56,539 bases of DNA from an uncultured Prolixibacteraceae bacterium (GTDB taxonomy: Bacteria; Bacteroidota; Bacteroidia; Bacteroidales; Prolixibacteraceae): assembly GCA_903865775.1 (NCBI GenBank), contig CAIPKZ010000344.1, forward strand, positions 1 through 56,539. Direction: 5' to 3'. Each line of letters starts with the position of its first letter. Within the stretch, counting starts at the first letter, position 1. The notes beneath the pieces are model-generated. The model searched no databases. It saw nothing but the letters and a program-made list of their open reading frames with translations, and was not told where the DNA came from. The translations under genes were made by a program, and so were the position numbers. Below are positions 1 through 50,030 of the stretch, in pieces.

Positions 1-680
1 CGGGCATTGAATTTCACCTTTCCGGTAACACCTTCGTTTGAACCTGAAAGCCCGGTTAATTCAAGAATGTCATTATTAATTACTTTAAGTGTTTTTTGTA
101 ATGGTCCGTCCATCGTAGCAGAAAAAGAAAGTTTTCCAGCTTCGCTTGCTGAAAGCCTCATAACAATCAGTTGGTCAGGTTGCGAGGCAAAAACTTCGCG
201 TTTGTAGCTTACACCACCAACTTTAAAAGTTGAAGTAAAAACCGCCTTTTCAAGGTCGAGTTCACGATAATATTCAGAATATCCGCTTAATCCGGTAAAT
301 GTAAGTTGCAAATTTCCAACAATCTGATAGACTGCGCCCTGAAATTGTTTGGCTTTAATCTTAGCGTCGGCCATTTTTTCAGCTTCAGCATATTTCCCAT
401 CAAAAATTAACTTGCGAACTTCGGGCAATGCATTAAGGGCATCGGGATTATCGTTATTTGTCGGACTTCCCGACCAGAAAGTCCCTTCATTGAGTTGAAT
501 TTTTTCTTTCAACGGATCGCCAAAAACCATTGCGCCAAGCCTACCGTTGCCGATGGGTAAGGCTTCGTTCCATACTGTTGCAGGTTTGGCATACCATAAC
601 TTAAGTTTTCCTCCTTGTTGAGCAACAGAAACAGTACAAATCAAAAACACCAACAAATTGATAATAAAAAGCTTCTTCAT
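1..680 (-). CDS. GH95-family alpha-L-fucosidase, N-terminal part (cut by window edge)
   Basis: This reading frame is absent from the ORF track because its stop lies beyond base 1. It begins at the ATG complementary to 678-680 and opens with a signal peptide (MKKLFIINLLVFLICTVSVA). The mature start 'LWYAKPATVWNEALPIGNGR' followed by 'LGAMVFGD' and 'LNEGTFWSGSP' is the hallmark of the GH95 N-terminal beta-sandwich domain. GH95 enzymes are inverting alpha-1,2-L-fucosidases, and some members act on L-galactosides. Only about 226 residues are visible, so the catalytic (alpha/alpha)6 domain and any sorting domain cannot be judged. It lies 76 bp downstream of the GH95-like giant gene and is most likely the third gene of the same minus-strand operon. 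Family assignment is secure; linkage specificity is unknown. Confidence 0.85.
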   Translation of the reverse strand, partial: MKKLFIINLLVFLICTVSVAQQGGKLKLWYAKPATVWNEALPIGNGRLGAMVFGDPLKEKIQLNEGTFWSGSPTNNDNPDALNALPEVRKLIFDGKYAEAEKMADAKIKAKQFQGAVYQIVGNLQLTFTGLSGYSEYYRELDLEKAVFTSTFKVGGVSYKREVFASQPDQLIVMRLSASEAGKLSFSATMDGPLQKTLKVINNDILELTGLSGSNEGVTGKVKFNA

Positions 681-33082: not shown

Positions 33083-33420
33083 AACGAAAGAAATACCAGT
33101 AAATTATTTTAGAAAACAACATTTGGTAATTATCCTGAATCTTTCAGAAGATCAACTATCTTCTGTTTATTGATGCATTTCAAAGACTTATCGTTTCCCG
33201 GGATTAATCAACTTATAAACCATAAAAACTATAAGGGTATGGCTTGAAAACTGTATGGAAAAATAGCTTCAGAAGTCAGGAAATATTATTCGCTCCATTC
33301 AAATGATTAGGCTAATACCACATGATAATTGAGCTCATTACTGCCGTGTTATAAGCTTTAAAAGTAATTATTATGAGCTTAAAATGGTATATTTTGAAAC
33401 GAAATTGTTAAGCATATTAA
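33083..33420. other. Non-coding, AT-rich spacer before recombinase relic
   Basis: There are 338 bp without an open frame of useful length. Short translated pieces such as 'FKDLSFPGINQLINHKNYKG' are interrupted by stops and may be debris of a lost gene, but I cannot identify it. The stretch ends at the GTTGCAAC boundary of relic copy 2. Confidence 0.4.
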
Positions 33421-33776
33421 GTTGCAACTTCCATCTATTAGGGGAGCCATACAGGACAAGAGGTCAGTTTCGACTTCTTGTCTTTTTTTTTGTCCCTCTG
33501 CAAACCTTGCCGGCATTGAGTAAAACCTGAACGGGTGTTGTGTATTCGTAGGTTGCAACTTTTGATTTCTCCAAAACGTTTTTTTCGAAATGATGCAACT
33601 TAATATCTTCTTTCTGGTGTTCCCATCCGATTTCCTGTAATACGACACCAGGTTTTCCAACATAGGAACCGTGTGTTTAATGTATTCCTTGAACGGGGAC
33701 TTATCGGCTTTTAGGTCTTTCAATTTGCAACATAGTCCTACCTGGTCTTTTTCAACACGTTGTTTCATCGTTTGGA
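33421..33776 (-). pseudogene. Serine recombinase 3'-end relic, copy 2 (longest)
   Basis: This is the most complete relic. On the minus strand it reads 'MKQRVEKDQVGLCCKLKDLK', 'SPFKEYIKHTVPMLENLVSY', 'RKKILSCIISKK', then shifts frame (one base lost in a T/A run near 33580) before 'KLQPTNTQHPFRFYS', which in the other copies is 'KVATYEFTTPIQVLL'. This matches the helical C-terminal tail of Bacteroidota serine recombinases ('LLxNLSxYYxxAD...ILGSIFPEKL'). GCAAC motifs occur at 33424, 33555, 33595 and 33727. Copy 1 lacks the 33595-33727 interval and copy 3 stops at 33555, so all breakpoints coincide with this motif. Confidence 0.6.
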
Positions 33777-33811
33777 ATTCTTGAGGTGAGATATGACTAT
33801 CGATTAACTGA

Positions 33812-34838
33812 TTTTGGTGTTTGAACTTTACGAATCGGTTGTATCAGGGCTGGGGCGAGTTTGCCCAGACTGACGGGAACAAATGGCCTGCTTACACCAT
33901 TCCGGTAGGCGCCTGTTTTGCAGGTAACTGGTCTGCAACCAGTCCGGTAGGGAAGAATGAAGTTCAGTTTTCGGCTTCCGATATGTTCCGGTAGACCGTC
34001 CTGGAAGCGGGTGCCAATACTTTTGGCGGCGGAGTTGCATGGGCAACCGGTCCTTATGCCGGGAAAGGCTGGGGAACAGGGGTATTGGATACGCTGGTTA
34101 AAGTCGGGCAATTGATTGAACCCATTGCCAGCTCCATCAAACAAACGCAGCCAGGCACTTCCTTTCCGACAGTTTCTGGAAAAACGATCAACGATTTAAG
34201 TTGGGGAGTAGCCACCCGCTCACTGGACAATAAACTTGAATATATTCATGTACTTAAAGCCCCGAAAGGCAAAATACTAATACTTCCGGTTCCTGAAGAT
34301 GGCAAGTTGTTTGGATCGGCATCGCTGTTGAGAAACAGGAAAAAAGTAACTTTGAAACAAACAGGGAAAGGGGTGGAACTCACCTTGTCTGAGGATGAAG
34401 ATTGGGATCCTTTCAATACAGTTATTCAGCTAACCGTTTCCGGGATGATACCTGTGAAATCGAAGTCCTGTTGGATCAATGATACTGAATTCGATATTTC
34501 ATATGAAGGCCGGGGCTGGGATTACAGCCGCTGGGAGCGGAAGCATGGCGATTACGATAACGACGTGCATGTAACAGCAGTGAAAGGCGATGCGCTACTC
34601 TTTCCTTTTACCGGAACCGGAATTGAATACATTGGCAGTCTGAGCAGCGATCAGGGCAAGTGCGATATCTTCCTGGATGGTATTTTTCAAACAACCGTTG
34701 ATGGTTTTGCAGCCAGGTTACCAGGCACAAAAAGTACTTTTCAGTAAAACCGGGTTAAATAATGGTAAACATCTTCTGAAGATTATGAATTCGGGCACGA
34801 AGTCCTTAGTTTTGGATGCAATAAAAATTTATAAATAA
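33812..34838 (+). pseudogene. Decayed GH29-type alpha-L-fucosidase (C-terminal part)
   Basis: The frame begins mid-protein ('NRLYQGWGEFAQTDGNKWPA'). It meets an in-frame TAG at 33992, where the intact paralogue has the Tyr of 'YKYTVLEAATN', continues as 'TVLEAGANTFGGGVAWATGP' and runs through the ORF track's 220-residue frame ('LSWGVATRSLDNKLEYIHVL'). A frameshift in an A-run near 34728 then moves the last piece 'VLFSKTGLNNGKHLLKIMNS' to another frame, ending at TAA 34836-34838. The TIM-barrel N-terminus with the nucleophile is missing. It aligns with residues about 290-430 of the GH29-like protein at 4585-7743. It lies directly after recombinase relic copy 2, suggesting that the truncation and the relic share a recombination event. 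Confidence 0.85.
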
Positions 34839-34848
34839 ACCGAAAGCT

Positions 34849-34947
34849 ATGAAATGTACATTCACCTTTCTTTTTTTGTTTGGGCTGCTTTCCAGCTTCA
34901 TCTATGGGCAGAATTCCGGCACGAATGCTTTGATTCTAACTATTAAG
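34849..34947 (+). pseudogene. Signal-peptide plus tail relic fused in frame upstream of GH106
   Basis: The 33 codons encode a complete signal peptide ('MKCTFTFLFLFGLLSSFIYG') followed at once by 'QNSGTNALILTIK'. That tail resembles the last residues of the preceding fucosidase pseudogene ('NSGTKSLVLDAIKIYK'), and the DNA also matches (AATTCnGGCACGAA). It looks like a gene whose whole middle was deleted and whose stop was lost, leaving the frame open into GH106. Confidence 0.5.
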
Positions 34948-37929
34948 ATGAAAAAAGACTTTAGACTGATACTTTTCGCGTGTGTGTTGTTTTTGTCCAT
35001 TTCTGCTACAGCCCAAACATCATCAAAAACATCCGATAATCTCGAATCCCGTTTCCTGAATCCCCCAACTTCGGTTAAGCCTTACGTTTGGTGGCACTGG
35101 ATGGGTTCCAATTTTTCAAAAGCTGGAATTACCAAAGATTTGGAAGCCATGAAAGCCGAAGGAATTGGTGGTGCAACCATTTTTAATCTGGCTTCTGCTG
35201 TTCAGGAATCACACGCTCCAACGCTCAATAATCCCTGGCCGGAGCAAACTTATCGCAGTGCGGCTTACTGGGAAGCAATCCGGTTTGCTGCGTCAGAAGC
35301 ACAACGTCTGGGTCTTGAAATCGGGCTTCATAACACCGTTGGCTATTCAACAACCGGCGGACCGTGGATTGATGAGGAACGTAGCATGCAACGTTTGGTT
35401 TGGAGCGACACGCTAATTTCAGGAGGAACGGAACTTAACCTGAAGTTAAAAGCTCCAACGTTAATTGCCGACGAAGGCTGGGGAAAAACGGGAAGGAAGA
35501 TTTCATTTTATAAAGACATCGTGGTTCTGGCAGTTCCTGCTGAAAAAAAAGAGATTGCCACAGCTGAAGTGCTGAACCTGACTTCGCACTATGATGCCGG
35601 GAGCGGATTGAAATGGAATGGCCCTTCAGGGAAATGGATTATTTACTGCATTGGGCATGCCTCCACCGGAAGGCCGCCACATCCGGTTCCCGACGATGTT
35701 TTGGGGAAAGTGCTTGAAGCAGATAAAATGAGCGCCGAACAAAGTGCATTTCACTGGAAGGCGGTGCTCGAACCGTTCAAAGAGAATTTGAGCGAATACC
35801 TGGGCAAATCGTTTAAGCATATGTTGATTGACAGTTACGAAGCCGGAAATCAAAACTGGACGCCTGGTTTTCGTGAAGAATTTATCAAACGTAAAGGATA
35901 CGATCCGATTCCCTGGCTGGCTTCGTTTAGCCTGACGGTTGGAGCGGAAAATGACAGCAAAGACCGCAGGATTGTGGGAAGCGATGAGCAGACCGCTCGT
36001 TTTGACTGGGATTATCGGGATGTGATCGACCAGTTATTTTATAAAAATGGCTGGAATATTGGAAAGAAAATGCTGAACGATGCCAAGCTCAATCTTCAAA
36101 TGGAACCTTATGGCGGGCCGTTTAATACCCCGCAAGGTGTAGCGTTGGCTGATCTTCCGATGGCCGAATTCTGGACTGCCGGAATTGGTGGCATTTACAG
36201 CGCAGTTCCTGCATCGGCAAGGGCAGCAGGAAAGACAGTTGTTGGAGCCGAAGCTTTTACAGGACGGCCTGAGGTGAGCCAGTTTACCGAAGATCCTGCT
36301 TTCCTGAAGCCATCAGCCGACGAAGTATTTGCCAGTGGAATCAACCGCATGGTTCTGCATCACTGGGTTCATCAGCCATTCGACGAACGCTATCAACCGG
36401 GAATGGGAATGGGTTGGTGGGGCACTCATTTCGGGCGAAACCAAACCTGGTTCGAACCCGGCAAAGCTTTCTTTACCTACCTGGCACGTTGTCAGGCGCT
36501 TCTACAATATGGCGAGCAGCCGGCCGATTACTTATGCGTGGAAAAAGAGGTGGATTTTTCTGATCTGATTTCGGTGGCTGATTTTATAAGCGGAAAGATA
36601 ACTGTTAAAAACGGGAAAATTGTTTTGCCATCGGGAAGAACATACCCATTTATTGTCTTTTCGGGAGATGGTATCATGTTGCCTGAAGTTACACGAAAAA
36701 TTAAACAGTTGGTTTCGGAAGGTGCGACAATTGTTTCAGCCAAACCTGCCAAATCCCCCAGCTTGAAGGACTTTCCGAAATGTGATGTGGAACTGAAACG
36801 ACTAACTGATGAAGTCTGGGGAACCAGCACCTCGAACAGATACAAAAAGGGATTCGTCTTCACCAAATTGGAAGATGCAATTAAGAAAGCTGGCCTGACC
36901 GCCGATTTTCAGATTGAAAACGCGGCAAGCCCAGCCAATATAAAAATAGCTCACCGTCATGCTGCCGATGCCGATATTTATTTCTTGTCGAATCAATCGG
37001 ATAAAGCGCAGTCTATTTCGGTTTCGTTCCGGATTTCAGGAAAGCAACCCGAATTGTGGCAGGCCGAAGATGGCAGCATCTCCGATGCGCCGGTCTGGAG
37101 CGATAAGAATGGACGTACAACAGTCAGTCTGAATCTGAAAGGAATCCAATCGGTATTTGTGGTTTTTCGGAAAGCTGCTTCAAAGGCTGATCATCTTGTT
37201 TCAGCTTCTGAAAAGAATCTGAACACCAACTGGGATATTCTCACGGGCAAAAGCGGATCGCATGTTTTGTGTACTTCCGAAGCTGTTTCAGTAGAGCTTG
37301 TTTATGCTTCAGGAAAACAAAAAACAGTACATGCCAAACCGAATGTTCCGGTTGAATTGTCCGGCTCATGGAAAGTTGCCTTTGCTCCAAAAACGGATCA
37401 GAAGTTTGAGCTGGTATTCCCTGAATTGATCGATTTCAGCAAGCACAGCAACACTTCGGTTAATTATTTCGCAGGAACAGCGACTTACAGCAAAAAAATA
37501 ACGATTGATGCAGCTTCGATGAAAGCAGGAACAATTCTCGATTTGGGTGAAATGAACGACATTGCCGAAGTGCGGGTTAACGGGAAAAGTGCAGGTGTAG
37601 TATGGTACCCGCCTTATCGGACCGACATTACCGGTTTGCTTGTTACAGGTGAAAACGATCTCGAAATTCTTGTAACTACCAATTGGGCCAACCGCCTTAT
37701 TGGTGATGAGCAGGAAACTGCCGATTTTGAGTGGGGCAACGACCGTGGCGAAAAAATGGGGCGCGCCATGCTGGCGTATCCCGATTGGTTTATAAAAAAT
37801 CAACCACGTCCATCACAAGGCCGTAAAACATTTTCCATTTGGTATTATTACCGGAAAGATAGTCCGCTGAAACCGGCAGGATTGGTTGGGCCGGTGCGAA
37901 TGGTAATACAATCGGTCATTAAATTGTAA
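34948..37929 (+). CDS. GH106-family alpha-L-rhamnosidase
   Basis: The ORF track starts at 34849, but the product then has two signal peptides in a row. The ATG at 34948 (MKKDFRLILFACVLFLSISA) is the natural start, giving 993 residues. GH106 features are 'PYVWWHWMGSNFSKAGITKD' followed by 'LEAMKAEGIGGATIFNL', 'RLGLEIGLHNTVGYSTTGGP', 'FKHMLIDSYEAGNQNWTPGF', 'GINRMVLHHWVHQPFDERYQ' and the C-terminal beta-sandwich 'LDLGEMNDIAEVRVNGKSAG' ending in 'TTNWANRLIGDEQ'. GH106 enzymes are calcium-dependent inverting alpha-L-rhamnosidases, best known from rhamnogalacturonan and RG-II degradation. It is the first gene of a four-gene plus-strand operon; the upstream leader contains a relic of another exported protein. 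Confidence 0.87.
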   Translation: MKKDFRLILFACVLFLSISATAQTSSKTSDNLESRFLNPPTSVKPYVWWHWMGSNFSKAGITKDLEAMKAEGIGGATIFNLASAVQESHAPTLNNPWPEQTYRSAAYWEAIRFAASEAQRLGLEIGLHNTVGYSTTGGPWIDEERSMQRLVWSDTLISGGTELNLKLKAPTLIADEGWGKTGRKISFYKDIVVLAVPAEKKEIATAEVLNLTSHYDAGSGLKWNGPSGKWIIYCIGHASTGRPPHPVPDDVLGKVLEADKMSAEQSAFHWKAVLEPFKENLSEYLGKSFKHMLIDSYEAGNQNWTPGFREEFIKRKGYDPIPWLASFSLTVGAENDSKDRRIVGSDEQTARFDWDYRDVIDQLFYKNGWNIGKKMLNDAKLNLQMEPYGGPFNTPQGVALADLPMAEFWTAGIGGIYSAVPASARAAGKTVVGAEAFTGRPEVSQFTEDPAFLKPSADEVFASGINRMVLHHWVHQPFDERYQPGMGMGWWGTHFGRNQTWFEPGKAFFTYLARCQALLQYGEQPADYLCVEKEVDFSDLISVADFISGKITVKNGKIVLPSGRTYPFIVFSGDGIMLPEVTRKIKQLVSEGATIVSAKPAKSPSLKDFPKCDVELKRLTDEVWGTSTSNRYKKGFVFTKLEDAIKKAGLTADFQIENAASPANIKIAHRHAADADIYFLSNQSDKAQSISVSFRISGKQPELWQAEDGSISDAPVWSDKNGRTTVSLNLKGIQSVFVVFRKAASKADHLVSASEKNLNTNWDILTGKSGSHVLCTSEAVSVELVYASGKQKTVHAKPNVPVELSGSWKVAFAPKTDQKFELVFPELIDFSKHSNTSVNYFAGTATYSKKITIDAASMKAGTILDLGEMNDIAEVRVNGKSAGVVWYPPYRTDITGLLVTGENDLEILVTTNWANRLIGDEQETADFEWGNDRGEKMGRAMLAYPDWFIKNQPRPSQGRKTFSIWYYYRKDSPLKPAGLVGPVRMVIQSVIKL

Positions 37930-37999
37930 CCATTGTGGATGGAACAAAATCATTTTAATGGAAAAATAAATAACTTAATCTCTAAGTATCAGATCTATT

Positions 38000-40336
38000 A
38001 TGATTACTCAAAACCAGTTTAAACGGCTTTTTGCGACAGTGGCAATTTCCTTAACTTTTTTATTTTCGTATAGTCAACATCATGAAAACAATATCCCTAA
38101 ATCCTACAATGTGGTTTGGGATTCACCATCCAAAGATGCCCTTGACGCCATGCCCTTATCTGGCAGAAAAGGAGCCGGTGCCAATGTATGGGTGCAGGAT
38201 GGCTCCATCTGGCTTTATCTAGCGCACAATGGCGCTTACGACGAAGAAGCGCGTCTCTTAAAGCTTGGGTGCGTCCGCCTTACGCCAAAAGATACTAAGC
38301 TTGGTGGAACTGGTTTTCGCCAGGAGCTCGACCTGGCTTCCGGCACAATATTAATCTCTCAAGGCGACTTTAAGGCATCTCTTTGGTTTGCAGGTGAAAC
38401 GCTGATTTTCGAATCGGAGTCCGGCAAACCTCAACACTTTGATGTTGCTTTCGGTAGCTGGCGCAATCAACACCGCGACAGTCTGAGGTTGGACATGTTT
38501 CGTTTTGTTAGCGTCAATCCCGACAACATCACTAAAGGAAAGGATGGTTTTAGCTGGTTTCACCGAAATGCTGATTTTGGTGTGAATGTTGTGAACCTGG
38601 CCAAACAGCAGGGAATTCCTGCTGAAGCGGTTCATGATATTACTACAAATCGCATTTTCGGAGGGACAATCGCAATTGATAAAGGTATTTCAACGCCTGT
38701 TGAATCAGATATTGAATGGCAATTTTGGAAAGGCAAAGCCTGGACAGGAAAAACAGTTAAAAGTAAAAAGCAGGTAATTGCCATTCGCATCGGTTCAACT
38801 ATGGATGGTAACACTAATCAGTGGAAGTCCGAAGCAAAATCAATGCTTTCCCCTGAAGCTTTAAAAAATGCAAGGGAGGATGAATTAAAACGCTGGAAAG
38901 AATTTTGGTTCCGATCAAATATCATGATTAATCCCGATGCCAAACCGGACGATACGGGATGGCTCATTGGGCGCAATTATCAGTTATTCCGTTACATGCT
39001 CGCCTGTAACAGAGATGGTGAATTGCCGTTGCTCTTCAATGGTGGAATTTTTACAGTTGACAATATTCCCGGACGTATTACCGGGAACAACAATGACGAA
39101 TTGCCCATTTCACAGGCAGGAACGTCAACACCAGATTTCCGGCGTTGGATGTTCTGCTCTTTTATGTCGCAAAACCAACGATGGCTGGGATGGCCGACTC
39201 TTGCTTGTGGCGATAAGGATATGCTGGAGCCATCTCTGGCATTTTACCGTGACCGTTCTGTTACAGCAACGGCCCGCGCCGGAATTCAGGGTGCAGAAGG
39301 TGTGGTTTATGTTGAGCCGCTGGATGTCTGGGGATTGTGCAGTGCCGGTGTAGCCCCGCTTCCAAATGGTTTGTGCGGAGCAGAGCATCTGACCTATCAC
39401 TTTTCCATGATGCTCGAACATGCATGGATGGCTTTACATGCTCATAATGTTTTGGGAATTCCTATTACCGGGGATCTGCACTGGATCGAAGGCACTGTTA
39501 AATTCTACGATAGCTTCTATCGAAATCAAACTAAAAAAACCACTGGAAAAGAATTGGGTGAAGATGGTAAGCTGGTCATTTATCCATCATGCGGACTCGA
39601 ATTTGCAGGCGGTGCCACTAATCCTATTGAAGTGGTTTGCGGACTCAAACGTATTACTGCAGGATTGCTTGCCTTGCCTGACCTTTCGGCGAAGTCGCGC
39701 ATAAATTTAGAACGCATCCAAAATACCTTGCCCGATATTCCTACCGGAATGCGCAATGGCCGTTTGTCCATACTACCAGCTAAAACGTTGGAGCGTGAAT
39801 ACAACAAGTGGGAACCTATTGAAATGTATGCTTACTGGCCTTACCGGATGGTAGGCGTAACTAAGCCCGGAACCATGCAACTGGCTCGCGATACCTGGGA
39901 AACCATTCCTGCCGACCGCGCCCGTCTTTGCAAGCAGGATTATTCCTGGATGGCTAATGTTATAAATATGGCCGCACTCGCATGGCCCGATTCCGCAAAG
40001 GCAAGGGCAATATACAAAATGGCCAATATAAAAGCTCCACAAGCACGCTTCCCAGCTTTCTTCGGTCCGGGGCACGACTGGCTGCCCGACCATAACTGGG
40101 GCGGTTCAGGAATGGTTGGCTTGCAGGAAATGCTCATGGCTGCTGATCCTTACGGTGATGGAAAGATTTACCTTTTGCCAGCCTGGCCTAAAGAGTGGGA
40201 CGTGGATTTTAAACTTCACACGCCACAGCAAACAACGGTTGAGGTGAGTGTACGAAAAGGGAAAGTTGTTTTACTGAAAATTTTTCCTGAATCACGGCAA
40301 AAAGATATAGTAATTAGCCCAGCTTTTATGGAATGA
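38000..40336 (+). CDS. DUF5703-type (alpha/alpha)6 glycosidase-like protein
   Basis: A 778-residue exported protein (leader 'FATVAISLTFLFSYSQ'). The N-terminal part 'NVVWDSPSKDALDAMPLSGR' followed by 'KGAGANVWVQDGSIWLYLAH' is the DUF5703 N-terminal domain, a GH95-like beta-sandwich with polar catalytic-site residues. The central region 'RNYQLFRYMLACNRDGELPL' and 'YHFSMMLEHAWMALHAHNVL' is an (alpha/alpha)6 barrel, and the end 'GDGKIYLLPAWPKEWDVDFK' is the usual closing sandwich of that clan. It sits 70 bp after GH106 and before the DUF4450 gene, so it is expected to act in rhamnoside-containing glycan breakdown. The reaction is not known to me. I would treat it as a candidate glycoside hydrolase. 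Confidence 0.7.
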   Translation: MITQNQFKRLFATVAISLTFLFSYSQHHENNIPKSYNVVWDSPSKDALDAMPLSGRKGAGANVWVQDGSIWLYLAHNGAYDEEARLLKLGCVRLTPKDTKLGGTGFRQELDLASGTILISQGDFKASLWFAGETLIFESESGKPQHFDVAFGSWRNQHRDSLRLDMFRFVSVNPDNITKGKDGFSWFHRNADFGVNVVNLAKQQGIPAEAVHDITTNRIFGGTIAIDKGISTPVESDIEWQFWKGKAWTGKTVKSKKQVIAIRIGSTMDGNTNQWKSEAKSMLSPEALKNAREDELKRWKEFWFRSNIMINPDAKPDDTGWLIGRNYQLFRYMLACNRDGELPLLFNGGIFTVDNIPGRITGNNNDELPISQAGTSTPDFRRWMFCSFMSQNQRWLGWPTLACGDKDMLEPSLAFYRDRSVTATARAGIQGAEGVVYVEPLDVWGLCSAGVAPLPNGLCGAEHLTYHFSMMLEHAWMALHAHNVLGIPITGDLHWIEGTVKFYDSFYRNQTKKTTGKELGEDGKLVIYPSCGLEFAGGATNPIEVVCGLKRITAGLLALPDLSAKSRINLERIQNTLPDIPTGMRNGRLSILPAKTLEREYNKWEPIEMYAYWPYRMVGVTKPGTMQLARDTWETIPADRARLCKQDYSWMANVINMAALAWPDSAKARAIYKMANIKAPQARFPAFFGPGHDWLPDHNWGGSGMVGLQEMLMAADPYGDGKIYLLPAWPKEWDVDFKLHTPQQTTVEVSVRKGKVVLLKIFPESRQKDIVISPAFME

Positions 40337-40398
40337 CCTGATTCATATCAATTAACATTATCTTTAACCAGAAGAAAATTCTTTAATTATAGTATAAA

Positions 40399-43300
40399 AT
40401 GAACAAGAGATTAGTACTAAATAAAGCCCTTTTAATTGTAGGTTTCATCTTTTTGATGATAGTTTCTTCCTTCCGGCTATCTGCACAGGATTATCAAACA
40501 AAATACAAGACGAAGGGTAAAAACATAGTGGGGCAAAACACCGGACGATACAACAACCGGCCCCTGTACATCAACAATACCGATGCATTTATTCTAGCCG
40601 GGGATCAGCCCATTGCCCGGTTAGTAAAAGACCAATATCTCTACGGAACCTTTATGCTGGCGATAGAACGCGGGGGTAAAGCGAAATGGCTACAGCAATG
40701 CGGGCAGATTACTTCCGGTTATAGTGCAGGCCAAATGACATGGACGATTACCGATAAAGAATTTCCAGGGCTTCAGGTAACTTTGGATATTTTGCCAATG
40801 GCTGCAACTACCGGAATGGCCATCCGTGCTACCGCCATAGGTGCGCAAAAGGGAGACAAGCTAATCTGGACTTTTGGCGGCGCTCAATGGCGCAAAGACC
40901 AGAACCTGTCCTGGAAACTCGATGTGATGGGACAGCCCGAACTGCTGACATGGGGTTTTGTTCCTGAGGAGTGTAAAAATAATTCGGTTGAAATCAAAGA
41001 TAAAAGCTTTTTTGTTCGTCTTCCTGATGCTGGCACAACAGCCAATACACTTTTTAATGTTGCTGGTAGTTGCAGCTCCCCAACGCAGGTAAACATGGGT
41101 GAAGCTTCCGGCTGGAATAATGCAACTTCGTTCGCCAAATCAAAATCACTTGGGTTACCACTCTTGAATGGATCGGTTGTACTTGAAATTGGGGAAACGA
41201 TCTATTGGGCTTTTGAAGCTTTTGATAAGGTTGACAATCCTAATTTATCGCATGTAAATGATCCTGAAAAAGCGTTTGCTGAAGGATTAAAACGTGTTGA
41301 ATCTTTTCAAAACAGATTAAAAATAAATACTCCTGATCCATTTTTGAATGCAATAGCACAAGCCTCTGTAGCTGCTGTGGATGGAACCTGGTATCCACCG
41401 GTTTTTGTGCATGGCGCTTTGCAGTGGAACATGAGGTTCCCTGGTTGGCGCACCATTTTTGGCGGAACGATGTATGGCTGGCATGACCGGGTGAGAGACG
41501 AAGCACAATTCTACACTGAATCACAGATTAAAGAGTCGGATAAAAAGGAAGCCAAAGCTGATCCTGCGCTACTCCTTACCGGGCAGCATCCCGATTCCCG
41601 GTTCTATGGCGTTGGGCGTATCAATAAGGATCAGAACTTTTACGATATGCAGACACAGTTTTTCGATCAGATTGTAGAAGAATATCGCTGGACTGCCGAT
41701 CCTGACTTAGTGAAATTTTTTCGCGAAGCGCTTGAATTGCATTTAATCTGGATTCGCGACTGTTTCGATCCGGATGGAGACGGGGTTTACGAAAGTTATC
41801 TGAATACCTGGCCCACCGATTCGCAGTGGTACAATGGTGGAGGATCGGCTGAAGAAACTTCGTACGCGTACCGGGGCCATCTGGCTGCCAGGGATATGGC
41901 CCGCAATGCCGGGGATGCAGAAACTGAAAAATATCATGCCCAAATGCTGGAAAAGATTAAAAAAGGGTTTTTCGATAAACTGTGGATTTCAAAAAAAGGA
42001 CATTCCGGTGCTTATCGCGAACAAGGCGGACACGAACGTTTACACCAGGATCCCTGGCTTTATAGTATCTTTCTACCCGTTGATGCTGGTCTTACCACCC
42101 CTGTACAATCTATCGAATCGGTGTATTACAGCGAGTGGGCTTTGCAAAATGACCGTATGTCCTCCGGAGGAAGGCAGGTATGGACTTCGAACTGGATTCC
42201 TGCCATCTGGTCTGTCCGTGAGTTGTGGCCCGGCGACAATTACCACCTGGCGCTTAGTTATTTTCAGGCAGGTCTGCCCAACGACGGCTATGATATATTC
42301 CGCGGCACTTTTATGCGCACTGCTTTTGACCATCTTTCTCCGGGAAACCTTGGAGGTATTCAGGGCGGGGTTGATTTTGGCGATTGCGTGCATACTTTTG
42401 CCCGTACACTGGTTTCGGGACTTTTCGGTTACCATCCCGATTATCCGAATGGGAAAGTGCAATTAGCTCCTCAGTTTCCAACCGAATGGAACAACGCTTC
42501 TATCGAACTGCCTGATGTTAAAATAGCTTTTGAACGAAAGGGGAATAAAAACAGCTACACCGTTGCACTGGCCCGGAAAGCGAAACTTGAACTGCTTTTA
42601 CCCATACAATGCAACGAGATTGCAACTGTTACGGTAAACGGTAAAAATGTAAAATGGGAGTTGCTCCCAGCCGTTGGACAAAGCCTGGTTAAAATTGAAC
42701 TTCCTGAATCGGATAAAGCCGAAGTGGTTATCGAAACAGGAAAAACCTTGCCTTATTATGTCCCGGTGGCTCTGGAAGGGAATATCGGAGATGTTCTGAA
42801 AATTCAGGCAAAGGATGCCCGGATTATTTCCGTTAACGATCCTCAAAGTGTACTTGGTGAGGTTAAGCTGGAAAATGGAATACTTACCACTAAGCTGACC
42901 AATAATAAAGGGTTTCACACCATAGTAACCCAAACGACATCTGGCAAAGCGCCTCAAATGAGGGTGTTCCGTATCAAAATAAACGATCCGGTGGGTGATG
43001 CCAGAGAAGCAGCCCGTTATGTAAATGAAATACCGAAAAATGCAAACTGGGAAAATATCAGCGTAAGTTCGCTGTTTAACGCGGATGTTACCACCATCTA
43101 TCAGCAGCAATATTTAACGCCCCGTCCAAACACTGTTTCAGTGCGTCTGGGAACCGATGGATATTCGCCCTGGACATTTCCTTACTGGAAGAGTCTTCCC
43201 CCTGCTATAAAAATGGATAAAGTAAAGAGTTTGCTTGTTGGTGAAAACCGCTTGGTTACTCCACAAGGAGTTCCTTTTAGCTGGAAAGCTGGTTCAAATA

Positions 43301-43746
43301 ACATCGCATTTACCTCCATGTGGGATAATTATCCACACAAGATTAATTTTCCTGTCAACAAAAGCGGTGATGTCGTTTATTTCCTTGTCTGCGGTTCGAC
43401 CAATGTGATGCAGTGCCAAATTGCCAATGCAGTTATCAGCTTAAATTACTCAGATGGATTAACAGATTCATTAGAACTTATTCCGCCAGTAAATTACTGG
43501 AATTTAAGCACTATTGACTCTCGTGCCACCGCGCCCGGCCAAGGTAGTCGCACAGATTATACTTCGGAAATTGACAGGTTTTGCATGCCGGCAAAATTTC
43601 CGGAAACAGTGCGATTGGGAGAAAATTGTCGTGCCATGCTGCTCAACCTGAAAATACGTAAAAATGTGGAACTGAAAAGCGTTACCCTTGAAACCCTTTC
43701 GCAGGAAGTGGTTGTGGGATTGATGGGAATTACAATAATGAAGTAA
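40399..43746 (+). CDS. DUF4450-type large exported glycosidase-like protein
   Basis: An 1115-residue protein with a signal peptide ('IFLMIVSSFRLSAQ'). The N-terminal domain 'NTGRYNNRPLYINNTDAFIL' followed by 'AGDQPIARLVKDQYLYGTFM' and 'LAIERGGKAKWLQQC' is what I recognise as DUF4450. An (alpha/alpha)6 barrel follows ('FVHGALQWNMRFPGWRTIFG', 'IWIRDCFDPDGDGVYESYLN', 'GGSAEETSYAYRGHLAARDM'). It contains acidic residues fit for catalysis, for instance in 'WHDRVRDEAQFYTES' and 'GGSAEETSYAYR'. Past residue 750 are two beta domains, the last resembling a carbohydrate-binding fold. It is encoded 62 bp after the DUF5703 gene and 12 bp before GH78, in the rhamnosidase operon. Function is unassigned; a debranching or exo-glycosidase role is an inference from fold and context. 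Confidence 0.62.
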   Translation: MNKRLVLNKALLIVGFIFLMIVSSFRLSAQDYQTKYKTKGKNIVGQNTGRYNNRPLYINNTDAFILAGDQPIARLVKDQYLYGTFMLAIERGGKAKWLQQCGQITSGYSAGQMTWTITDKEFPGLQVTLDILPMAATTGMAIRATAIGAQKGDKLIWTFGGAQWRKDQNLSWKLDVMGQPELLTWGFVPEECKNNSVEIKDKSFFVRLPDAGTTANTLFNVAGSCSSPTQVNMGEASGWNNATSFAKSKSLGLPLLNGSVVLEIGETIYWAFEAFDKVDNPNLSHVNDPEKAFAEGLKRVESFQNRLKINTPDPFLNAIAQASVAAVDGTWYPPVFVHGALQWNMRFPGWRTIFGGTMYGWHDRVRDEAQFYTESQIKESDKKEAKADPALLLTGQHPDSRFYGVGRINKDQNFYDMQTQFFDQIVEEYRWTADPDLVKFFREALELHLIWIRDCFDPDGDGVYESYLNTWPTDSQWYNGGGSAEETSYAYRGHLAARDMARNAGDAETEKYHAQMLEKIKKGFFDKLWISKKGHSGAYREQGGHERLHQDPWLYSIFLPVDAGLTTPVQSIESVYYSEWALQNDRMSSGGRQVWTSNWIPAIWSVRELWPGDNYHLALSYFQAGLPNDGYDIFRGTFMRTAFDHLSPGNLGGIQGGVDFGDCVHTFARTLVSGLFGYHPDYPNGKVQLAPQFPTEWNNASIELPDVKIAFERKGNKNSYTVALARKAKLELLLPIQCNEIATVTVNGKNVKWELLPAVGQSLVKIELPESDKAEVVIETGKTLPYYVPVALEGNIGDVLKIQAKDARIISVNDPQSVLGEVKLENGILTTKLTNNKGFHTIVTQTTSGKAPQMRVFRIKINDPVGDAREAARYVNEIPKNANWENISVSSLFNADVTTIYQQQYLTPRPNTVSVRLGTDGYSPWTFPYWKSLPPAIKMDKVKSLLVGENRLVTPQGVPFSWKAGSNNIAFTSMWDNYPHKINFPVNKSGDVVYFLVCGSTNVMQCQIANAVISLNYSDGLTDSLELIPPVNYWNLSTIDSRATAPGQGSRTDYTSEIDRFCMPAKFPETVRLGENCRAMLLNLKIRKNVELKSVTLETLSQEVVVGLMGITIMK

Positions 43747-43758
43747 AATTATCCTAAT

Positions 43759-46056
43759 ATGAAGAAATGCTATTTAACTGTTATTACTTTTTTTCTGTAT
43801 CTTGCTTTACATGCACAAGTCTGGCAATCCCAATGGCTCTCAGCCGTTGAGAGCAAAAACGACACCAACATCTGGCAAGTGTTTCGTAAAAATATCAATC
43901 TGACAGCAACGCCCCAAAAGGCAACAGCCCGGATAGCTGTCGATTCGAAATACTGGTTGTGGATTAATGGCGAATTGGTTGTTTACGAAGGAGGACTGAA
44001 ACGTGGTCCCGATCCCAACGACACCTATTTTGATGTGGTGGATGTTAGCCGATTCCTGAAAAAAGGGACCAACACCCTTGCCATTTTATCGTGTTACTGG
44101 GGCAAAGACGGATATTCGCACAAGAACAGCGGCAAAGCCGGATTAGTAGCCGAAATCAATGCCGATGGAAAAATTTTTGTTACCGACCAAAGCTGGAAAG
44201 CCTTGCGCCATTCGGCTTATGGAACCACTGGCGATCCGCATCCCAATTACCGGATGCCCGACGACAACATTCATTTCGATGCAAGGAAAGATATCGGCAA
44301 CTGGATAGCTTCTGATTACGACGATTCATCCTGGCGTTACGCCATCGCCTTGGGCACGCCACCTTCCGCCCCATGGAACCAACTCGTTGAACGGCCCATC
44401 CCGCTTTGGAAAGTGGAAGAGCTAACCAAATATGAGAATGATGCCCAACTGCCGAAAATCAGCGATGGCAAACCCATTATCGCTAATTTACCCCGAAACA
44501 TTACCATTTCGCCTTATCTGAAGATAAAAGCTCCGGCTGGATTGACCATCGACATGCGCACCGACAATTACAAAGGAGGCAGCGAATACAACTACCGCTC
44601 GGAATATGTAACCAAAGAAGGCGTTCAGGAGTTCGAGAGCCTGGCTTACCTGAACGGCCACTGGATGATTTACAGCATTCCCGCAGGAGTAGAAATACTG
44701 GAACTTCGCTACCGCGAAACGCGCTACAGCACTGAGTTTACGGGCAGATTCGATAGCGATGATCCTTTCCTGAACTCGTTGTGGATAAAGTGCCGCAACA
44801 CGATGAACGTGAACATGCGCGATGCCATCCAAGACCCCGACCGCGAACGCGCCCAGTGGTGGGGTGATGTGGCCATATTGCTGGGAGAAATTTTGCATTC
44901 GTGCGACCTAAAAGCACATGCGCTGATAAAAAAGGCAATTCTGAACTTGGTCGACTGGCAGAAACCCGATGGGGTACTTTATTCTCCCGTTCCCTCCGGA
45001 AGCTGGGATCAGGAACTTCCCGGACAAATGCTTTCGAGTATCGGGATGCATGGATTCTGGTATTATTACCTCTATACCGGCGATTTGGCAACAATTCAAC
45101 ACGCCTATCCAGCCGTAAAACGCTATCTGGATTTGTGGCAGCTTGGTTCCGACGGACTTCTGGTTCACCGCAGTGGTGGCTGGGACTGGGGTGACTGGGG
45201 CGATAACATTGACCGTCCGGTGATGGACAACGCCCTGCTATATCAGGCGCTCGAATCTGCTATCAATATGGCAAAGCTTACCGGAAATGAGGCAGATATT
45301 CCCCATTACGAAAGCATGAGGAAGAGCATCAGTGCCAACTATAACCGCATTTTATGGACAGGCAGCGAATATCGTTCGCCGGGCTATACCGGTATTACCG
45401 ATGATCGTGGGCATGGACTGGCCGTTTTGGTTGGTCTGGCCAAACCAGAACAATATCCGGCTATTAAAAAAGTTTTCACCCAATTCTTCAATGCCAGTCC
45501 CTACATGGAAAAATACATCCTCGAATCCATTTTCCGGATGGGAGATCCCAATGCGGCATTGACCCGCATGAAGTCGCGCTATCAGAAAATGGTGGAGAGC
45601 CCGCTGTCAACACTTTGGGAAGGGTGGGGCATCGGTGCTGAAGGTTATGGAGGTGGCAGCTACAACCATGGTTGGTCGGGAGGTCCGCTTACGTTGTTGA
45701 TGGAATACGTTTGTGGAATCGCGCCCCTCGAGCCCGGCTTTAGCCGGTTTCAGGTGATGCCACAGCCCGGAAGTCTGAACAGGGCATCGGCATCTTTCGA
45801 AACGGTAAAGGGAACCATCCGGTCATCGTTCCAAAAACTGCCCTCCGCAATGGAAATTAAGGTAACCATCCCGGCTTCGACCCGCGCTGTTGTTGGTGTT
45901 CCTGCTTCAGGAGTAAAAAGCATTAAACTGAACGGAATACAGGTATGGAAAGCCGGAAAGTATTTAAAGAATGCTGTCTCTTGCACCAAATTACCTGCTG
46001 ACCGGATTGGCTTTGAAGTCGCTCCGGGAGAATGGAGTTTTGTAGCTGAATATTGA
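43759..46056 (+). CDS. GH78-family alpha-L-rhamnosidase
   Basis: A 765-residue exported enzyme (leader 'LTVITFFLYLALHAQ'). The N-terminal beta domain carries the lectin-like 'ATARIAVDSKYWLWINGELV' unit, where a sugar-binding module often sits. The (alpha/alpha)6 catalytic domain has 'MRDAIQDPDRERAQWWGDVA', corresponding to the 'DCPQRxERxGWxGD' motif with the acidic catalytic residues. It also has 'SGGWDWGDWGDNIDRPVMDN' and 'SPLSTLWEGWGIGAEGYGGG'. GH78 enzymes are inverting exo-alpha-L-rhamnosidases on plant and microbial glycans. The protein is somewhat shorter than the common 900-1000 residues but appears complete. It is the last gene of the operon, and a strong terminator lies 121 bp downstream. 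Confidence 0.88.
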   Translation: MKKCYLTVITFFLYLALHAQVWQSQWLSAVESKNDTNIWQVFRKNINLTATPQKATARIAVDSKYWLWINGELVVYEGGLKRGPDPNDTYFDVVDVSRFLKKGTNTLAILSCYWGKDGYSHKNSGKAGLVAEINADGKIFVTDQSWKALRHSAYGTTGDPHPNYRMPDDNIHFDARKDIGNWIASDYDDSSWRYAIALGTPPSAPWNQLVERPIPLWKVEELTKYENDAQLPKISDGKPIIANLPRNITISPYLKIKAPAGLTIDMRTDNYKGGSEYNYRSEYVTKEGVQEFESLAYLNGHWMIYSIPAGVEILELRYRETRYSTEFTGRFDSDDPFLNSLWIKCRNTMNVNMRDAIQDPDRERAQWWGDVAILLGEILHSCDLKAHALIKKAILNLVDWQKPDGVLYSPVPSGSWDQELPGQMLSSIGMHGFWYYYLYTGDLATIQHAYPAVKRYLDLWQLGSDGLLVHRSGGWDWGDWGDNIDRPVMDNALLYQALESAINMAKLTGNEADIPHYESMRKSISANYNRILWTGSEYRSPGYTGITDDRGHGLAVLVGLAKPEQYPAIKKVFTQFFNASPYMEKYILESIFRMGDPNAALTRMKSRYQKMVESPLSTLWEGWGIGAEGYGGGSYNHGWSGGPLTLLMEYVCGIAPLEPGFSRFQVMPQPGSLNRASASFETVKGTIRSSFQKLPSAMEIKVTIPASTRAVVGVPASGVKSIKLNGIQVWKAGKYLKNAVSCTKLPADRIGFEVAPGEWSFVAEY

Positions 46057-46177
46057 TCAAATGAAGAAAAAATAAGTTTTACTGTTTGGCTTATGATTGT
46101 CGACTCTCAAAAGTTTTGCTCTCAAAAAATAGTTTATTGTATGTTTAGTTAGGTTTTGATTTGGTTAGATTAGTTTG

Positions 46178-46207
46178 CCCCTTTGCCAGCAATGGCAAGG
46201 GGTTTTT
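46178..46207 (+). terminator. Intrinsic terminator of the rhamnosidase operon
   Basis: CCCCTTTGCCA-GCAA-TGGCAAGGGG forms a strong hairpin with a one-base bulge, followed by TTTTT. It lies downstream of the GH78 stop and before any other gene. Confidence 0.85.
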
Positions 46208-46505
46208 GATTATCGTATGATACGGGTTTACTAATTTCATAAAGAAACCACAAATTATCTCTCCCGAAGTCGGGGATTTCGTTTTCCTCGAAATGGGGAA
46301 CTGTTTCGGAATACTTTAGCGTAACCGGCAAATTTTGCTGCCCAATGGATTTCCAGTACATTGAAAAACCTGATTAATCAATTCTTTCATTTAGATTTGA
46401 GAAAATCAAGGAGCCACAATTTCTTGCAGCTCCTGATTTGTGCCATTTTTAGAACTATCACTTGAAGATACCTTTACTTCCTTTCAGTTGAAAGGAAGCA
46501 AAACA
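46208..46505. other. Spacer between terminator and relic copy 3
   Basis: About 300 bp with no convincing gene. The 63-residue minus-strand ORF 46170-46361 overlaps the terminator and has no recognisable family, so I treat the region as non-coding. Confidence 0.45.
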
Positions 46506-46643
46506 GTTGCAAGTTCCATCCACCAGGGGAGCCATACAGGACAAGAGGTCAGTTTCGACCTCCTGTCTTTTTTTTGTCCCTCTGCAAACCTTGCTGGCAT
46601 TGAGTAAAACCTGAATGGGTGTCGTGAATTCGTAGGTTGCAAC
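46506..46643 (-). pseudogene. Serine recombinase 3'-end relic, copy 3 (minimal unit)
   Basis: This is exactly the unit between two GTTGCAA(C) motifs, 138 bp long, and it encodes on the minus strand 'VATYEFTTPIQVLLNASKVC' plus 'RGTKK'. The flanks on both sides are unrelated to those of the other copies. It shows that the minimal repeated unit is delimited by GTTGCAAC. Confidence 0.65.
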
Positions 46644-47065
46644 TAAACTGGAGCAATAACCTTTCATGGGAAATATTATTAGTTCTAATAATCAAACTAA
46701 TAGATATTATTTCAAAGATAGTTCAGCTTAAAATTTATTCTGGCGAATCATTTGGTTCATCAGGAGGGCAATCTTAGGGATGAATTGAAAAATAGTTTGT
46801 TTTGTCCACAAAATGTCCACGCGAGGACATGTATTAATAGTATAATAAACTCTAAGTTTAGTGGTTGATTAAAACTAATTTTCAAAACCTTATAGAATCG
46901 TCCAATCTAAATTTTAATAGGTATTTTCATCCGAATATAATTTGTTTTTTTTTTGCCGGATGGAACTCGCATGTGAAATATTCATCTGTGTTTGTGTTTA
47001 CAGAACATGCTCGTTTCATATTTCTAATATACTATGTTTACGTGATAAATTAATCACATTAATTT
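46644..47065. other. AT-rich spacer upstream of a hypothetical exported protein
   Basis: There are 422 bp without a supported gene. The 62-residue ORF at 46865-47053 is rich in Phe, Ile and Tyr as expected from AT-rich sequence and has no start context. A promoter for the gene at 47066 is presumably here, but I see no clear consensus. Confidence 0.4.
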
Positions 47066-47578
47066 ATGAAACTATTTTTAACCATTTTATTATTTCTGAG
47101 TATTTCCTTAGTTAGTATTGGTCAAAAAGCAAATATTTTTCATAGTGATACAATTTATGGTGATAAATTTTATAGTGGTATATATGCCTATAACCATCAT
47201 AATCATCATATCAGTCCTTACATTTATTATAGGTTTTTTTATAGAGATAATACAGAAAAATCCAAAAATATACTTATATATTCAACTATTGGATTTGGCG
47301 TTAATTCTTATGGTAAATTGAATTTTAGTGTTGGACAGGATTTGGTAATTAATGAAAAAATCTTAATTGGACCTGGAATAAGTTTTTTTGGTTATAAAGA
47401 GATAGGACAATTTTATTTACCTGAACTTCGAATTGGATATAAATTAAAAAAATATATGCTAATTGGTACTTCTTATTGGAATTATAAGAATGCTAAAGTA
47501 AGTTATGATGGTGTAAATTTTGGAATTGGTAAACAGCCAATAGTGAAATTTACTATTGGCTGTTTTAGAACATTTTAA
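47066..47578 (+). CDS. Hypothetical exported protein, possible small beta-barrel
   Basis: A 170-residue protein with a signal peptide ('FLTILLFLSISLVSIGQ'). The mature part alternates aromatic and polar residues with repeated Tyr-Gly and Gly-x-Gly ('YSTIGFGVNSYGKLNFSVGQ', 'LIGPGISFFGYKEIGQFYLP', 'RIGYKLKKYMLIGTSYWNYK') and ends in Phe. This suggests a small outer-membrane beta-barrel, although no family is recognised. A His-rich turn 'YNHHNHHISPYIYY' stands out. Codon use is much more AT-rich than in the glycosidase operons, suggesting a different origin. An 11-14 bp terminator hairpin lies inside its last codons. Confidence 0.65.
   Translation: MKLFLTILLFLSISLVSIGQKANIFHSDTIYGDKFYSGIYAYNHHNHHISPYIYYRFFYRDNTEKSKNILIYSTIGFGVNSYGKLNFSVGQDLVINEKILIGPGISFFGYKEIGQFYLPELRIGYKLKKYMLIGTSYWNYKNAKVSYDGVNFGIGKQPIVKFTIGCFRTF
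47531..47566 (+). terminator. Terminator hairpin overlapping the end of the 47066-47578 CDS
   Basis: AAACAGCCAATAGT and ACTATTGGCTGTTT form a perfect 14-base inverted repeat around GAAATTT, followed by TTTT within the run. It lies inside the coding sequence for the last residues before the stop at 47576-47578, so terminator and C-terminus share the same DNA. Confidence 0.75.
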
Positions 47579-47993
47579 ATTAATTATAAAATCACTTTTC
47601 TCCTTCATCTTGAATTTCAATAATTAAGAAAAAGAAATAATTCCTCGAATTTAATGAAACTTGATAAGATTGATTTAGGTGAAGTTGTAAGTAGAAATTA
47701 CAAATGCACAGAAAATGGCAAATTAGAGTGCACAGAAAATGGCAACAACAGTGCACAACTTTTCTATTTTCAAAAGTATGTTATTTCCTAAATTTAATTA
47801 AATAACTATTAATCAGCCAATTGATATAGGGTCTATGTTGGAAATGATTGTAGTAAGTGTAATTGTTATTCGTATCTTAAAATTTTCAGGATTCCACGAA
47901 TAAAAAACGAAAAAATTAGAACTAATCACCTTGCAATTAAATTTTGGGAAATATTAATATCAGTTCAATAGGTCTAATTTCCTAAATTAAAGA
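47579..47993. other. Intergenic region with no gene, possible IS scar
   Basis: There are 415 bp of AT-rich DNA. The only structure I see is the tandem TGCACAGAAAATGGCAA repeat at 47705-47745 with a third partial TGCACAA at 47752. No transposase remnant is readable beside it. Confidence 0.45.
47705..47745. repeat. Tandem TGCACAGAAAATGGCAA repeat, possible IS21-type end
   Basis: Two perfect 17-base copies lie 24 bp apart (47705-47721 and 47729-47745). Repeated terminal motifs with TGCAC and TGGCA are seen at the ends of IS21-family elements in Bacteroidota, as far as I recall. No istA or istB sequence is left, so this would be a solo end or scar. Confidence 0.4.
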
Positions 47994-48245
47994 ATGCTAC
48001 ATTCTGAAGATGTTTACCTGAAAGCCCTGTCAAAATATAGTGACCTTGAAAATAAAGCATGGTTGCTGAAATACTTTGAACTTTATAAAAGCACATTACT
48101 CTGGCCTCCTGGCCTTCCACCAATCAGATGGCCTCGTATAATAAAGGGAACATTGATTGCGAAATTTCACGCTTATTATGGTGAAACACTTTCAGAATAC
48201 AGCCATAAACTGGATAATGATAATAGAACGCTTGAAATTCAATAA
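47994..48245 (+). CDS. Small hypothetical protein
   Basis: An 83-residue frame, 'MLHSEDVYLKALSKYSDLEN' followed by 'KAWLLKYFELYKSTLLWPPG'. The composition is balanced, with Trp and Pro, unlike the Phe/Ile/Lys-only frames of random AT-rich DNA, so it may be a real gene or the remains of a longer one. There is no signal peptide and no family I recognise. Confidence 0.35.
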   Translation: MLHSEDVYLKALSKYSDLENKAWLLKYFELYKSTLLWPPGLPPIRWPRIIKGTLIAKFHAYYGETLSEYSHKLDNDNRTLEIQ

Positions 48246-48387
48246 ATTGAATTAATCTGACAGATAGGAATTATTATTCACTAGATGTATTGACTTTCAT
48301 AATATAAGTGTTAACTTGTTCAAACTATATTATGGAAGTAGTGTAGACACTTTTAAAACGAAATACCTAAAGTAAGACAATCTACAC

Positions 48388-48798
48388 ATGAAAATCATCA
48401 GGATATTTATTATAATCTCGATCCTTTCTCTTTCAATTGATGGAATGGCACAAAAAGCAGCTGTGCCTATAATTAATAAGATTATCAATTCCTATCTTGA
48501 TACATTATTAAGACTTGATTTAAAAACCGTACTGTTAACCAAAGATTTTAAGATAGACAGTAGATTTCAAAACACACCAAATTTCAAAATATATACGGAT
48601 TCTTTGCAGGGAAGATATTATGTATTGAGATATACTTTAGATGAACTCAGGAATAATTGTATAAAAGTAAAAGTTCACCTAAATGAAATTAAGATATCAA
48701 AAAATGGAGCCCAAGAAGATGCGAGTGACATTCACCCTCATGATTATTACTGGATTATGTATGATTGTGAAAAACAAGATTGGATTATTAAAAAATAA
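48388..48798 (+). CDS. Hypothetical exported protein
   Basis: A 136-residue frame with a clear signal peptide ('IIRIFIIISILSLSIDGMAQ'). The mature part 'KAAVPIINKIINSYLDTLLR' followed by 'DSRFQNTPNFKIYTDSLQGR' and 'HPHDYYWIMYDCEKQDWIIK' resembles small lineage-specific periplasmic proteins. No domain is recognised. It is AT-rich like its neighbours and preceded by 142 bp without a gene. It is isolated, so no operon context helps. Confidence 0.6.
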   Translation: MKIIRIFIIISILSLSIDGMAQKAAVPIINKIINSYLDTLLRLDLKTVLLTKDFKIDSRFQNTPNFKIYTDSLQGRYYVLRYTLDELRNNCIKVKVHLNEIKISKNGAQEDASDIHPHDYYWIMYDCEKQDWIIKK

Positions 48799-49022
48799 TA
48801 GTTGCTATAGAGTAAATGGCTGACGGGATTGTAGCCTCGAAATCGTACCGCTCACATTTTCAAAAAATTATTCATCTGAAAATCAAATTTCACATTCAAT
48901 CACGAATTAGTTAAGCTCAATAATAAAATGCTTAATTATATTTCAATCATTATAATTGATTAAAATATAATCGACTGCCATGTGCTTGTTTAGTCTTTAG
49001 TAACCTTGATAAAATTGAATCC

Positions 49023-49673: not shown

Positions 49674-50030
49674 GAAAAATAGATTCACTTTTTGGGACAT
49701 GTTTGAGTTTGTTGAATTAAATACAACTTAATCTGACAGATGAAACTACATTTGGAATTGCAAACAATGAATCTTTATAGATAAAGTTGGTGGCTAAAAA
49801 TACAGTCTTGAAAAAATTTCAATAGTTTTACAGATGGAAGTTCTTAGTGTAAAATATCACAAGTAGGTGTCTAATTCGAGACCAAATGGTTTCAATCGCT
49901 CTTAACTCGTAGAACTGTTAATCATACAGGACAATAGTTCATTTTCGACTTTTTTTTTGTCCCTCTGCAAACCTTGCTGGCATTGATGAGTTAGTATATT
50001 GGGGTGGAGAACTGTAGGTTATCTTCAACT
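49674..50030. other. Intergenic stretch with degenerate recombinase relic
   Basis: There are 357 bp with no gene. The only recognisable part is the fourth relic (49922-49985). The region separates the AT-rich hypotheticals from the convergently oriented response regulator. Confidence 0.5.
49922..49985 (-). repeat. Degenerate fourth copy of the recombinase relic
   Basis: CATACAGGACAA, TTCGACTT, TTTTTTTTGTCCCTCTGCAA and ACCTTGCTGGCATTGA match the core of the other copies in the same orientation. About 12 bases are lost in the middle, and neither GTTGCAAC border is kept. It is the most decayed member of the set. Confidence 0.7.

Follow-up and report, generated by a model that had tools for sequence, protein, structure and literature searches.

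The decayed repeats that recur in the window (the whole stretch of DNA analysed, 56,539 nucleotides from an uncultured Prolixibacteraceae bacterium) are, with a probability of roughly 0.8, the attachment-site junctions of a tandem array of elements integrated by a large serine recombinase specific for tRNA-Asn. On the best reading of the data, this array is SCC-like and integron-like, and its enzyme is now mostly lost.

Decayed copies in the window and their edges

Four copies of a decayed element lie between genes on the + strand, at 8167-8396, 33421-33816, 46505-46644 and, as a fragment, 49923-49986; the homology of copy 2 extends beyond 33776 to about 33816. Copies 1 to 3 have in common GTTGCAACTTCC-N6-AGGGGAGCCA, behind which stand first a terminator hairpin and then, on the minus strand, the decayed remains of a gene for a large serine recombinase, namely of its 3' end. 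The frames of this relic are shifted in copies 1 and 2; read across frames, it matches the C-terminal portion of such an enzyme. All three begin, as had been noticed from the letters alone, at GTTGCAA (8167, 33421, and 46505) and read GTTGCAAC TTCC ATCYAYYA GGGGAGCCA, with the variant GTTGCAAG in copy 3.

The first attP-like junction (8167-8195, + strand) consists of the left arm GTTGCAACTTCCATCCATTAG and the core GGGAGCCA, and equals the attR of an element in the congeneric genome G021 (C152:18903-18930); the recombinase 3'-end relic that follows (8195-8396, minus strand) comprises the right arm with its terminator and has an internal 132-bp deletion at about 8343-8349. At the second junction (33421-33449, + strand, attP-like; GTTGCAACTTCCATCTATTAGGGGAGCCA), the terminator hairpin (GACAAGAGGTCAGTTTCGACTTCTTGTC plus a T run, 33455-33491) stands directly past the core, and the relic (33449-33816, minus strand) is the longest in the window, broken in its frames and matching the C-terminal part of the query with an E value of 2.7e-39. 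The third attP-like junction (46506-46534, + strand; GTTGCAAGTTCCATCCACCAGGGGAGCCA) is followed by a relic at 46534-46644 (minus strand), while relic 4 (49923-49986, minus strand) stems from a more divergent lineage and has lost its left arm, with the right arm and the recombinase 3' end retained. A Pfam scan of the 129-aa window frame by itself gave no match, and a search of positions 33300-33900 against Rfam returned a single match, at chance level.

The left edges agree across the whole family of sites, and weaker similarity at times extends 10-40 bp upstream of them (e.g. copy 3 versus G022). Upstream of junction 3 (46474-46506) we also observed an inverted repeat, CTTCCTTTCAGTTGAAAGGAAG, ending ~10 bp before GTTGCAA; its surroundings are homologous to the sequence upstream of 442401 in G022:C1, so that the left cassette end is conserved past the octamer.

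The sequence-only reading held that all breakpoints fall on the motif, and proposed counting edges over the copies in this and related genomes. At the left such a count gives coinciding edges, as that reading had expected; at the right it gives edges that are spread widely and unrelated to the motif. Among the copies of this genome, only copy 3 has its right edge at the motif, namely at the next GTTGCAACT (46636-46644), as had been described. Copy 1 ends at 8396 (...AAATTCT) and copy 2 at about 33816, neither with any relation to the motif; the fourth copy, which had been missed, is unrelated to it at both ends, and the further copies C403 and C480 end in ...CCAAAACG and in an edge without GTTGCAAC, respectively. 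Across 65 distinct sites of many genomes, the right edges are scattered, which rules out the second GTTGCAAC as a functional right edge.

This second octamer, taken earlier for an edge signal, lies at +131 and turns out to be the recombinase codons K-V-A-T-Y (33552-33559; also 8298-8305 and 46636-46643), its offset being fixed at about 130 because the recombinase 3' ends are homologous. It is retained in a few relics with faint coding similarity, and may be an accessory binding site. The window contains GTTGCAAC five times against 1.34 expected, a count reached by 2 of 100 shuffles, and four of the five occurrences are the two motif positions of copies 1 and 2; the excess is modest, and the placement of the motif matters more.

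It was likewise correct that copy 1 lacks 132 bp present in copy 2, with the joint inside CAACTTA, the absent segment (33594-33731) lying between TGCAAC (33594-33599) and TGCAAC (33726-33731). That the motif drove this loss does not follow, since the gap is flanked by direct repeats (TGCAACTTA / TGCAACTTAAT) that measure 9 bp in G021 and 11 bp, TGCAACTTA(AT), in C198, both of them less decayed genes, and 132 bp between such repeats are explained by ordinary slippage.

An intact element at tRNA-Asn in a congeneric genome

In G021, whose locus is near-identical to JANXYV010000051.1 (a Prolixibacteraceae MAG), an intact serine recombinase of 526 aa terminates at the 3' end of tRNA-Asn. The same contig carries, 18.7 kb from the tRNA-Asn and recombinase, GTTGCAACTTCCATCCATTAGGGGAGCCA followed by ATATGATAAGTAAAATTTACAAAAACGCTTGAAATC, the latter being homologous to the native terminator that stands directly behind tRNA-Asn in element-free relatives (e.g. 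G031 and G125). Because the trailing sequence is a homologue of the native terminator, the two ends of this element are attL (tRNA, right arm, and recombinase gene) and attR (left arm, core, and native flank). The two share GGAGCCA, and attB and attP share GGAGC, a comparison from which the crossover is predicted to lie at GGAGC, some 20 bp away from the octamer. attL and attR rule out the octamer itself as the crossover; it forms the outer end of the left att arm, where it is conserved. Left arm, core and right arm are all present at the window junctions, which therefore have the structure of attP, as expected between elements tandemly integrated at one attB. Dyad symmetry, which the attP of a serine recombinase should show, is weak here (10 of 22 positions).

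A site-specific process, as suggested earlier, is thus upheld by the common left edges, though not with the octamer as its point of recombination, and the anticipated enzyme with an octamer-containing att site was found: it is the serine recombinase, of whose gene the relic is itself the 3' end. That an octamer-specific or microhomology process at GTTGCAAC made all the edges is very unlikely, for while every left edge and the right edge of copy 3 lie at an octamer, the right edges of the other copies refute it there, the second octamer belongs to a coding sequence, repeats of another kind border the 132-bp gap, and it is GGAGCCA, not the octamer, that attL and attR hold in common.

At this locus (L099, 8600-8711), the frame of the G021 recombinase crosses attL and continues on the antisense strand of tRNA-Asn (APQVGLEPTTYGL), an extension that would be mis-annotated as protein.

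The recombinase and its remnants

The G021 protein has an N-terminal Resolvase domain (PF00239, 1.2e-32), a Recombinase domain (PF07508, 8.8e-10) and a long C-terminal region, and its gene adjoins its own attP and ends at attL, with a short core common to attL and attR, all of which is found in large serine recombinases. Its nearest solved chains are serine recombinases (3guv and 3bvp, the TP901-1 integrase). Its alignments to the CcrA, CcrB, CcrC and XisF models span most of the protein, at scores far below the cut-offs (CcrB, 101.9 bits versus 900; CcrA, 88.2 versus 700; CcrC, 75.2 versus 900), so that, judged from its sequence, it may be Ccr-like in its working but is not filed as Ccr.

Most array genomes are devoid of any large serine recombinase. 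No PF07508 domain was found in the genome that contains the window; the domain occurs in 6 of the 29 array genomes examined, and at tRNA-Asn only in G021 and in G092, where it is cut by the contig end. The genome of the window does carry a longer relative of the relic (198 aa, C198), which adjoins tRNA-Asn; in the fragmented assembly its contig is not joined to that of the window. This remnant at the tRNA is the longest in the genome (198 codons), consistent with growth of the array by addition next to the tRNA. Beside it (L002, 476-1086), two small ORFs resemble, by eye, a HicA/HicB toxin-antitoxin pair. Neither the site nor a relative of the recombinase was found in IMG/VR, and a viral origin was rejected; plasmids yielded only distant recombinases, all below 60% identity.

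It is conceivable that the array is site-specific and owes its formation to another recombinase, such as a tRNA-targeting tyrosine integrase, the serine recombinase being only one of many passengers. About half of the sites are without a recognisable recombinase 3' end, and a different enzyme could therefore have set those; moreover, tyrosine recombinases are common in all these genomes, tRNA 3' ends are their classic targets, and a tRNA T-arm fragment occurs at a few junctions. Against this, the serine recombinase is the one gene that repeatedly adjoins the core, at the same offset in several genera, it has a matching attL/attR pair in G021, and the 25 commonest families among 131 cassette proteins include no recombinase family. 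On balance we consider a different enzyme unlikely.

Arrays behind tRNA-Asn across the order

The motif was present in 32 of 140 genomes of the family, where the reversed control pattern gave zero hits. In a sample of 295 genomes from across the order it was present in 18, other families included, and the control pattern gave a handful of hits. On the 15 contigs that bear both tRNA-Asn and sites, every one of the 31 scored sites lies downstream of tRNA-Asn and on its strand, in a hand-assembled list that excludes contigs with tRNA fragments only (e.g. L164, where the site is upstream of a partial tRNA). The site consensus is GTTGCAACTTYC-N7-AGGGGAGC, and consecutive boundaries lie a median of 2052 bp apart (69 intervals; range, 338-25254 bp), the largest interval being in the window. 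As in additive tRNA-anchored flexible islands, serial cassettes stand behind a conserved tRNA, their junctions are repeated, and they vary between relatives.

A terminator-like hairpin stands directly past the core at 78 of 90 sites versus 60 of 300 random places, in keeping with what a tRNA would require once its own terminator is displaced; unoccupied tRNA-Asn genes are mostly without an encoded CCA and have unrelated terminators. That the repeats are dispersed short mobile elements (MITE or IS remnants) which merely resemble an att site is highly improbable. The copies are indeed short, multicopy, intergenic and degenerate, and those of the window no longer encode an intact protein, but they are co-oriented behind tRNA-Asn, end in the 3' sequence of the tRNA and carry a terminator, their left half is the attR of an integrated element, and target-site duplication was not seen in the inspected flanks.

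Two kinds of left arm coexist at the junctions, GTTGCAACTTCC and a T-arm copy. The latter was observed at L106 10797, L109 4639, L104 11079 and L165 13649, where GTTGCAACTTCC is replaced by 24 nt copied from the T-arm and acceptor end of the tRNA. In several genera (L018, L045, L091, L105, and L133), an insert of 55-70 bp (AATCTCATTCAATCG...CGATTGAATTTGCAAGCAAA) sits in the loop of the att terminator, for example at + 40..110 of the site at 1021 in L091; it is apparently a small repeat that landed repeatedly at one spot.

Proposed mechanism

The attB recognised by the large serine recombinase would be GGTTCAAGTCCTACCTGAGGAGC, made up of the T-arm and the 3' part of the acceptor of tRNA-Asn. 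Its attP would combine the left arm GTTGCAACTTCC-N6-AG, the core GGGAGC(CA), and a right arm in which a Rho-independent terminator precedes the 3' end of the recombinase gene itself. Integration, presumably catalysed by this enzyme as excision would be, would put the element directly behind the tRNA, where it would take the place of the native terminator. With every later integration at this spot the older elements would be pushed outward, so that the array would grow at its tRNA end and attP-like junctions would come to lie between neighbours in a single orientation. The recombinase genes would then decay from their distal (5') part, with short 3' ends left beside the core. Elsewhere in the order many cassettes retain only arm, core and terminator, and to move these the recombinase would be needed in trans.

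Comparison with known systems

Composite elements and elements without ccr are known for the SCC and ECC islands. In these islands large serine recombinases act at the 3' end of rlmH (PMC6222049). The array resembles them in its large serine recombinase, in integration at the 3' end of a conserved gene, in the attL/attR direct repeats and in its diverse cargo. It differs in that its target is tRNA-Asn instead of rlmH, in that a single recombinase far below the Ccr cut-offs takes the place of ccrAB or ccrC, and in that attP supplies the tRNA terminator, many cassettes are very small, and the host belongs to the Bacteroidota.

Additive islands have been described from Alteromonas, in which the flexible genomic island fGI1 lies at a tRNA gene (PMC4119200), and from the Methylophilaceae, in which fGI-2 contains repeated tRNA-Lys 3' ends (PMC10872708). 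Both islands share with the present array cassettes added serially behind a conserved tRNA, tRNA-derived repeats and variable length, whereas a serine recombinase is not named in the passages that describe them (PMC4119200, PMC10872708), and here the repeat is a distinct attP arm, not a tRNA copy, and each cassette starts with a terminator. Tycheposons are also tRNA-anchored and of variable cargo, but use a tyrosine recombinase and occur in other organisms (PMC10872708).

Chromosomal integrons and CALINs are alike in having small co-oriented cassettes, toxin-antitoxin cargo, an anchor at one end and an integrase that is often missing, and differ in their site and recombinase class. It is nevertheless extremely unlikely that we are dealing with a chromosomal integron array that has lost its integrase (CALIN-like), in spite of the cassette sizes and single orientation, as none of 20 array genomes has an IntI gene over the cut-off (TIGR02249), the site consensus contains, by inspection, no attC core GTTRRRY, and the site is at a tRNA 3' end with a terminator.

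The array genomes do encode tyrosine recombinases that resemble integron integrases at both ends of the model, without its middle part (e.g. L198-L200, G000:C22:35422-36240), several of them at the ends of contigs, as though multicopy. Three were checked, and none had an att-type site nearby.

A search of the open-licence literature, outside which most subscription journals fall, found no description of a tRNA-Asn-anchored cassette array with a serine recombinase in Bacteroidota; the system, which recurs across this order, seems to be undescribed in its present form.

Cargo and cassettes shared between genomes

The three junctions in the window separate blocks of carbohydrate genes. Between the first two lies a segment of 25 kb (8397-33420, + strand) with GH92, MGH1-like GH and GH125 genes, inositol-catabolism-type genes and SusC/SusD; the second, of 13 kb (33817-46505, + strand), is a rhamnosidase block with GH106 and Bac_rhamnosid rhamnosidases, DUF5703 and DUF4450; and the third, of 3.3 kb (46645-49922), holds small ORFs without a Pfam match. 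Elsewhere, the toxin-antitoxin, regulatory or sugar genes of the cassettes include MNT/HEPN (HepT), HipA, AbiE and Fic modules, AAA-DUF4143 proteins, and AraC and two-component regulators.

When arrays of different genomes are aligned, the nucleotide homology breaks off at a site in both of them at 18 of the 90 alignment ends, compared with a mean of 0.08 and a maximum of 4 in 2000 trials with rotated site positions. Some cassettes recur between the same sites in different genera. One of them, encoding a 328-aa 3-keto-disaccharide hydrolase, is found in G070, G082, G128 and G032 (82-94% protein identity), and in the first two it is bounded within about 13 bp of sites on both sides while its neighbours differ. 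In G030, G137 and G138, which belong to one genus, about 2 kb are common up to the tRNA 3' end, with complete difference beyond.

Tentatively, and at somewhat less than even odds, the arrays may amount to an integron-like cassette system run by a serine integrase throughout this Bacteroidota order, in which small non-autonomous cassettes, each with a tRNA terminator and an attP arm, would be captured and shuffled in trans behind tRNA-Asn, with toxin-antitoxin modules and 13-25 kb sugar-degradation clusters as cargo. Such a serine-recombinase counterpart to the integron cassette array could offer a concrete, testable route by which environmental Bacteroidota serially gain polysaccharide-degradation clusters, toxin-antitoxin modules and regulators. 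The site consensus makes cassette boundaries readable from sequence alone, and the att pair (attP arm and tRNA-Asn attB) together with the intact G021 recombinase makes the mechanism directly testable.

Between relic 2 and the GH106 gene (33797-34747), overlapping open frames look like a decayed gene, among them a 220-aa frame without a Pfam match.
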